Origin: an uncultured Pelagibacteraceae bacterium
GTDB taxonomy: Bacteria > Pseudomonadota > Alphaproteobacteria > Pelagibacterales > Pelagibacteraceae
Length of the DNA stretch: 64,000 nucleotides
NCBI GenBank assembly: GCA_902593845.1
Contig: CACJJV010000004.1
Location: forward strand, 1-64,000
Direction: 5' to 3'
The notes below the pieces were generated by a model that saw only the letters and a list, made by a program, of their open reading frames with translations, searched no databases and had not been told where the DNA came from. Below are positions 13,383 to 48,161 of this stretch, one piece after another. Position numbers and translations under genes: made by a program. Each line of letters starts with the position of its first letter. Position 1 is the first letter of the stretch.

Positions 13383-13418
13383 AATTATTAATGCTAATTA
13401 TTGAATTGTGAGAAAAAA

Positions 13419-13469
13419 AACTTTTTTAGCGGTTTTTTTAAAGCGCTCGCAATTCAGTTAAATCAGCGC
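13419..13469 (-). ncRNA. SAM-II-like riboswitch upstream of metX
   Basis: Minus strand GCGCUGAUUUAACUGAAUUGCGAGCGCUUUAAAAAAACCGCUAAAAAAGUU resembles the SAM-II core (GCGCUGAUUUAAC...UUGCnAGCGC...GCUAAAAA), with a GCGCU/AGCGC P1 stem, in the leader of a methionine gene. Confidence 0.88.
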
Positions 13470-13475
13470 ATAAAT

Positions 13476-13504
13476 TTTGTACAAGATGTTATTTAGTATG
13501 TCAA
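13476..13504 (-). promoter_or_regulatory. Putative sigma-70 promoter of the metX riboswitch leader
   Basis: Minus strand TTGACA-N17-TACAAA, ending ~6 nt before the riboswitch core. Confidence 0.72.
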
Positions 13505-47623: not shown

Positions 47624-48070
47624 TTATTTAATTTCAATAAGTTTTCTTTTTTTATGCTCTGGAACAATCCTCTCACAAGATATTGTTAAAAGACCATCTT
47701 TTAATTCAGCACCATTAACTTTCACATCATCAGCTATAGTAAATGATCTGGCAAATTGTCTTTGAGAAATACCTTTGTGAATTATTTCTCCATCAGCATT
47801 ATTATTTTCAGATTTATTAACTTGTTTAGTTCTTACAGTTAATAAATTATCTTCAAACTCAACTTCAACATCGTTTTTATTAAAACCAGCTAAAGCAACT
47901 TCAATTGCATAGTTATCCTTACCAGTTTTTCTGATGTTATAAGGCGGGTAGTTTGACTGCATAGTCAAAGAACCATTACCAAGCATATTTTCAAATTGGT
48001 CAAACATATCGTCAAAACCAATTGAAAAAGGTCTTAGTGAGTTGAATATAGATAAATCCTTACTTGTCAT
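47624..48070 (-). CDS. Small heat shock protein, Hsp20/IbpA family
   Basis: YPPYNIRKTGKDNYAIEVALAGFNKNDVEVEFEDNLLTV, DGLLTISCERIVPE. Confidence 0.95.
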   Translation of the reverse strand: MTSKDLSIFNSLRPFSIGFDDMFDQFENMLGNGSLTMQSNYPPYNIRKTGKDNYAIEVALAGFNKNDVEVEFEDNLLTVRTKQVNKSENNNADGEIIHKGISQRQFARSFTIADDVKVNGAELKDGLLTISCERIVPEHKKRKLIEIK

Positions 48071-48075
48071 AATAT

Positions 48076-48126
48076 CCTCCTTTGTTAAGCAAGTTTATTT
48101 ATTGTTAGCCCCATTAGGCGACCAAC
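48076..48126 (-). ncRNA. ROSE-like RNA thermometer candidate in hsp20 5' UTR
   Basis: Leader GUUGGUCGCCUAAUGGGGCUAACAAUAAAUAAACUUGCUUAACAAAGGAGG: hairpin 1 GUUGGUCGCC/GGGGCUAAC (loop UAAU) and hairpin 2 CUUGCUU-AACA-AAGGAG(G), with UUGCU opposite the Shine-Dalgarno AGGA. Confidence 0.68.
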
Positions 48127-48132
48127 ATTATT

Positions 48133-48161
48133 TATATGGGAATTATTTGTTTTTTTTCAAG
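48133..48161 (-). promoter_or_regulatory. Putative sigma-32 (RpoH) promoter for hsp20
   Basis: Minus strand CTTGAAA-N14-CCCATATA, near the RpoH consensus. Confidence 0.82.

Follow-up and report, generated by a model that had tools for sequence, protein, structure and literature searches.

The hsp20 leader of SAR11 bacteria: a putative short ROSE-like RNA thermometer with two hairpins and a sigma-32 type promoter

The leader of hsp20, the sole small heat-shock gene of a SAR11 bacterium of the family Pelagibacteraceae, is most likely a short two-hairpin RNA thermometer of the ROSE-like type located behind a sigma-32 promoter, a reading to which we assign a probability of roughly 0.8. SAR11 bacteria are the most abundant bacteria of the sea and possess few regulators. 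The element lies in the window, i.e. the whole 64,000-nt stretch of DNA analyzed here, and judged by its sequence we class it as a SAR11 version of the short two-hairpin ROSE-like elements known from Pseudomonas, positioned outside the ROSE families of Rfam. If this reading is correct, a direct temperature sensor acts on the only small heat-shock gene of a lineage facing ocean warming, and the three ROSE models of Rfam fail to capture an entire, abundant branch of the class. Moreover, the family-wide conservation of the element suggests that genome streamlining has not removed the thermometer, and its anatomy raises the question of what part the coding region plays in the switch.

The hsp20 gene, its promoter and the layout of the leader

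An earlier interpretation of the DNA without database searches (the sequence-only reading) had proposed a heat-regulated small heat-shock gene in a streamlined genome, and its coordinates and letters for promoter and leader were found to be correct when the minus strand was read again. The open reading frame at 47624-48070 (minus strand) encodes an IbpA-type small heat-shock protein of 148 aa and is the single PF00011 (Hsp20) match in its genome (64.5 bits, above the cut-off), and the assignment to SAR11 and the Pelagibacteraceae bears out the claim of a streamlined genome. Orthologs were present in 259 out of 297 genomes of the order, and the hsp20 leaders of about 130 loci were retrieved and read in the direction of the gene. 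The ATG is located at position 48070 of the minus strand and is preceded by a leader of 56 nt. Like other ROSE-like elements, the structure thus occupies the 5' UTR of a gene for a small heat-shock protein.

Upstream of the leader, the minus strand carries CTTGAAA (48161-48155), followed after 14 nt by CCCATATA (48140-48133). This arrangement corresponds to a promoter of the sigma-32 (RpoH) type (48133-48161, minus strand) with CTTGAAA as the -35 box, a 15-nt spacer and CCATATA (48139-48133) as the -10 box. Among 109 distinct leaders of the family, the best-scoring -35 box was CTTGAAA or ATTGAAA in 97, the spacer measured 15 nt in 90, and the first pair of hairpin I was found 6 nt past the -10 box in 76; the predicted transcription start therefore coincides with the foot of hairpin I. 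The genome contains a gene for RpoH (match above the curated cut-off), and the same promoter type, CTTGAAA-N15/16-CTATATG, is found upstream of groES in this genome and in its relatives. A consensus promoter common to hsp20 and groES, together with the cognate sigma factor, points to a sigma-32 regulon that would include hsp20. The sigma-32 type promoter recognized in the sequence-only reading is thus backed by family-wide conservation, and the promoter, its counterpart at groES and the RpoH gene make the two-layer heat control proposed there appear well founded at the sequence level.

The leader itself begins with hairpin I (48126-48104), continues with a 10-nt linker and ends with CUUGCUUAACAAAGGAGG (48093-48076). 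Hairpin I reads GTTGGTCGCC-TAAT-GGGGCTAAC on the minus strand and forms nine pairs in the arrangement G-UUGG-UC-(G bulge)-CC-UAAU-GG-GG-CUAA-C, its first base being the predicted transcription start. The start-proximal segment, CTTGCTT-AACA-AAGGAGG, corresponds to hairpin II (48076-48093, minus strand), in which the anti-SD C-UUGCU (48092-48088) is predicted to lie opposite the Shine-Dalgarno (SD) sequence AAGGAGG (48082-48076), with G48090 either bulged or engaged in a G-G pair. The two-hairpin plan of about 56 nt that had been read from this single leader was recovered with identical architecture in every parsed hsp20 leader of the family.

Conservation of the two hairpins

Hairpin I is a covarying structure. 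Pair counts were limited to ungapped examples of this hairpin, since MAFFT, applied to the full set of leaders, had aligned the 3' outer stem wrongly where the linker was short. Across 59 distinct ungapped hairpins of the family, 96.2% of the cells in the nine pairs were paired, and two-sided changes were observed in 53 cells compared to 13.4 in shuffles. Pairing fell to about 55% or less when the partner strand was slid by 1-3 columns, and one position of the stem displayed all six standard pair types across the set. With this covariation the leader possesses the upstream hairpin that characterizes the ROSE-like class. Among the same 59 hairpins no variation occurred in the bulged G or in the CC/GG pairs at the apex, and the apex (GCC-loop-GG) is kept more strictly than pairing alone requires. 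The core of hairpin I (48104-48126), UYG-CC opposite GGGR, resembles the UYG-CU opposite AGGA of hairpin II, and both contain an irregular G.

In hairpin II it is the motif that is conserved. All parsed leaders of the family contain UUGCU or UCGCU, the latter in one genus, plus AAGGAG, and since this core is invariant, it offers no changes within the family by which the stem could be judged; the UUGCU/AGGA pairing is accordingly conserved in sequence rather than proven by covariation, and covariation of its flanks within the family was not significant (Fisher P ~0.10). The sequence elements behind the proposal that UUGCU stands opposite the SD are thus present throughout, and the start-proximal hairpin combines U(U/C)GCU with the SD as in other ROSE-like elements, in a pairing that is predicted. 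Folded in isolation, hairpin II is predicted to form at 10-37 °C with the G bulged. Weak support for the stem from outside the family is provided by the second family of the order, in which UCGCU opposite AGGA is kept and A-U flanks replace C-G. In hsp20 leaders of other orders, U-A or A-U occupies the flank where some SAR11 leaders show C-G. The second-family leaders (L032-L043) possess upstream hairpins of a different sequence, followed by an invariant AAUCGCUUAAGGAGGAUU ahead of the ATG, suggesting a replacement of hairpin I upstream of a retained ROSE core.

Relation to known ROSE elements

A scan against Rfam at the gathering score yielded no match in the window. When the scan was relaxed (4227 models), the two best matches at the leader were both ROSE families, namely ROSE_3 (RF02523, which we take to be the Pseudomonas family; 22.1 bits, gathering 43, E 0.027) and ROSE (RF00435; 19.7 bits, gathering 45), and ROSE_2 (RF01832) gave no match there. 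The leader scores below the gathering thresholds of all three models and therefore lies outside the Rfam ROSE families as modelled. ROSE_3 was also the best Rfam match in 5 out of 20 other SAR11 leaders. E-values scale with the length of sequence given, and the ROSE match is lost when the whole window is scanned at E 2; a scan of long loci produced no match at E ≤1, partly for the same reason. As a yardstick, the validated E. coli ibpA element scored 100 bits against ROSE_2 and 20.8 bits against ROSE_3, which places the SAR11 leader as near to ROSE_3 as an accepted ROSE element of another branch.

A covariance model trained on 21 SAR11 leaders (the SAR11 model) identified one site in its own genome (89 bits), with no second ROSE copy there, and scored other leaders of the family at 37-87 bits. 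Second-family leaders were matched weakly (17-25 bits) at the correct position, and the E. coli region gave no match. When 289 alphaproteobacterial genomes were searched blind with this model, seven matches fell outside the order, five of which were located directly upstream of hsp20, in five genomes belonging to three families. Together with the sub-threshold ROSE_3 match and the E. coli yardstick, these blind matches to hsp20 leaders argue for a SAR11 variant of the short ROSE-like elements.

The remaining two matches, one upstream of rpoH and the other at an ABC-F gene, are both weak and may be due to chance. The candidate directly upstream of rpoH (L177 1501-1564; G545:C86:8458-8521, minus strand) contains UUGCU plus AAGGA and scored 24.8 bits; a ROSE element at rpoH was rejected, being a single weak match in a distant alphaproteobacterium that is absent from two relatives of its family. 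At L175 (G314:C63:84299-84409, plus strand), a terminator-like hairpin GGCGGTCGCCTAATGGGGCCGCC before an ABC-F gene has an apex identical to that of SAR11 hairpin I. The simple pattern TTGCT-SD-ATG matched only hsp20 and one other place in the genome, and recurrent extra matches checked in relatives were located inside coding sequence and were discarded.

The closest counterpart is the ROSE-like element of Pseudomonas ibpA (closest Rfam model RF02523), a two-hairpin element with U(U/C)GCU and a sigma-32 promoter that is proven by experiment and in which the second hairpin melts while the first stays closed (PMC3669281). The minimal two-hairpin architecture claimed in the sequence-only reading is thus present in SAR11, but as a form it is not new, being known in Pseudomonas (PMC3669281). 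Both are restricted to two hairpins, the start-proximal one carrying U(U/C)GCU across from the SD, both belong to a small heat-shock gene with a sigma-32 promoter, and their leaders are similar in length; a bulged base in hairpin I is shared with the ROSE_3 consensus. The SAR11 leader differs by its score of 22.1 bits against the ROSE_3 gathering value of 43, by an A+T-rich outer stem, by the apex CC-UAAU-GG of hairpin I and by a conserved stretch of coding sequence complementary to the anti-SD, and unlike the Pseudomonas element it is predicted from sequence. The rhizobial ROSE element (RF00435) has the bulged-G motif in common with SAR11, and the hairpin I apex GCCUUAUGGGGC of many SAR11 leaders equals the consensus of that family, whose model is longer, with 94 positions of which about 30 are absent from the SAR11 leader. 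ROSE_2 of enteric ibpA (RF01832) concerns the same gene and the same SD-masking logic, but it is matched by the E. coli leader and not by that of SAR11.

Full-text literature searches found no ROSE element described for SAR11, apart from an unspecified mention of strain HIMB5: Stav et al. 2019 list a 'possible RNA thermometer' in this SAR11 strain, the gene and structure of which are unnamed in the main text of the paper (PMC6429828). HIMB5 belongs to the same clade, and as far as that main text allows a comparison, its candidate may be the hsp20 leader.

Predicted switching, the coding region and alternative roles of the leader

Folding was predicted with nearest-neighbour models, which lack the special ROSE G-G pair, and for this reason all folding values are to be read as indications only. 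The SD was predicted to be masked, with an unpaired probability of about 0.2 in real leaders compared to about 0.5 in dinucleotide-shuffled leaders throughout the temperatures. The change with temperature was gradual: between 5 and 45 °C the value rose from 0.19 to 0.31 for the leader alone, and from 0.30 to 0.57 when 30 nt of coding sequence were included. This slow change in SD exposure counts against a thermometer, as does the lowest-energy fold with coding sequence, which avoids the anti-SD:SD pairing. Gradual melting, and the fact that hairpin I starts at about the predicted transcription start, would also suit a static leader, whose hairpins merely stabilize the 5' end of the mRNA and set a low basal translation, all heat control residing in the sigma-32 promoter. 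We consider such a leader highly improbable, given that groES has the same promoter without a leader of this kind, that the SAR11 model detects the structure in its own genome only at hsp20, and that the feature specifically conserved is the U(U/C)GCU/SD motif known from thermometers with experimental proof.

For a ROSE-like thermometer the following course of events would apply. At normal sea temperature UUGCU would pair weakly with the SD in a stem containing an irregular G, resulting in poor translation of hsp20. Upon heat or protein-folding stress, RpoH would produce the hsp20 transcript, starting at the foot of hairpin I. Warming would open hairpin II first and free the ribosome site, and by analogy to the Pseudomonas relatives hairpin I would stay closed.

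The conserved RNA signal extends beyond the leader into codons 2-4 of hsp20, ACA AGU AAG, which are frozen at synonymous sites while the adjoining codons are variable. Ser3 was encoded by AGT in all 100 distinct gene starts of the family and Lys4 by AAG in 98 out of 99; elsewhere in hsp20, AGT accounts for 72 of 864 Ser codons (8%) and AAG for 129 of 817 Lys codons (16%), and the early codons of groES vary in the same genome group. Within these codons, AAGUAAG (48059-48065, minus strand) is complementary to the anti-SD CUUGCUU and could form a competing helix. In the lowest-energy fold of the window's leader with its coding sequence, the anti-SD indeed takes codons 2-4, and not the SD, as its partner, and the RNAalifold consensus including coding sequence contains the anti-SD:AAGUAAG helix at most temperatures. 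The best candidate for the constraint at the RNA level that conserves codons 3-4 is this predicted helix, by which the frozen AGU AAG may tune the switch.

Carried further, these observations lead to a tentative model in which the leader acts as a switch between two folds and not as a simple zipper, the anti-SD having the SD (off) and the AAGUAAG of codons 2-4 as alternative partners and temperature shifting the balance, so that the competitor within the ROSE element would come from the coding sequence of hsp20 itself. In addition to the synonymous freezing and the RNAalifold helix, this model is in line with the ability of both anti-SD forms, CUUGCUU and CCUUGCU, to form seven pairs each with AAGUAAGG. 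Between 5 and 45 °C the modelled anti-SD:SD pairing decreases from 0.46 to 0.27 and the anti-SD:coding pairing increases from 0.17 to 0.43, and recoding to TCA AAA reduces the predicted SD exposure at 10-40 °C from 0.31-0.51 to 0.20-0.33, in calculations that include no score for the special ROSE G-G pair. However, compensatory changes in the anti-SD:coding helix were looked for and none were found, and the helix is absent from the second family, the UCGCU genus and other orders. It would furthermore trap the SD together with the start codon within a closed loop, and in the model the natural codons raise the cost of opening the whole region from -15 to +15 by about 1 kcal/mol. We regard as rather doubtful the more elaborate version of a bistable ROSE element in which the SD and the frozen codons 2-4 are both conserved partners of the anti-SD and exclude each other, making the coding sequence part of a thermometer that is perhaps additionally read by Hsp20. 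We know of no description of such a coupled SD/coding-region design for ROSE elements.

A role of the protein itself has a precedent in E. coli, where IbpA binds its own leader and represses its own translation, which depends on Arg93, an aromatic residue at position 34 (Tyr34) and basic residues at 97 and 98, Lys98 being needed unless replaced by Arg (PMC10474464). By analogy, the SAR11 leader could mainly be a binding site for Hsp20, which would be drawn off onto aggregates like E. coli IbpA, in which case temperature would act via protein damage instead of RNA melting; the two mechanisms may coexist. In an alignment with IbpA, SAR11 Hsp20 keeps the equivalents of Arg93, Tyr34 and Arg97, the first of which is missing from IbpB, and the strict conservation of the hairpin I tip noted above would fit a bound protein. 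The equivalent of Lys98 is Ser in SAR11, however, the study in question tested gammaproteobacterial proteins only (PMC10474464), and self-repression alone leaves the conserved UUGCU opposite the SD unexplained, making it unlikely as the main function of the leader. The preferred reading remains a ROSE-like thermometer.

Elsewhere in the window, two further sub-threshold Rfam matches were observed. The segment 5067-5132 (plus strand) partially matches the Rickettsia sRNA Rp_sR47 (43.6 bits, gathering 60, E 7.5e-8). At 13405-13479 (minus strand), matches to the SAM_alpha (30.2 bits, gathering 36) and SAM-II (31.9 bits, gathering 44) riboswitches coincide; this segment is probably a divergent SAM-II-like riboswitch of a kind typical of SAR11.
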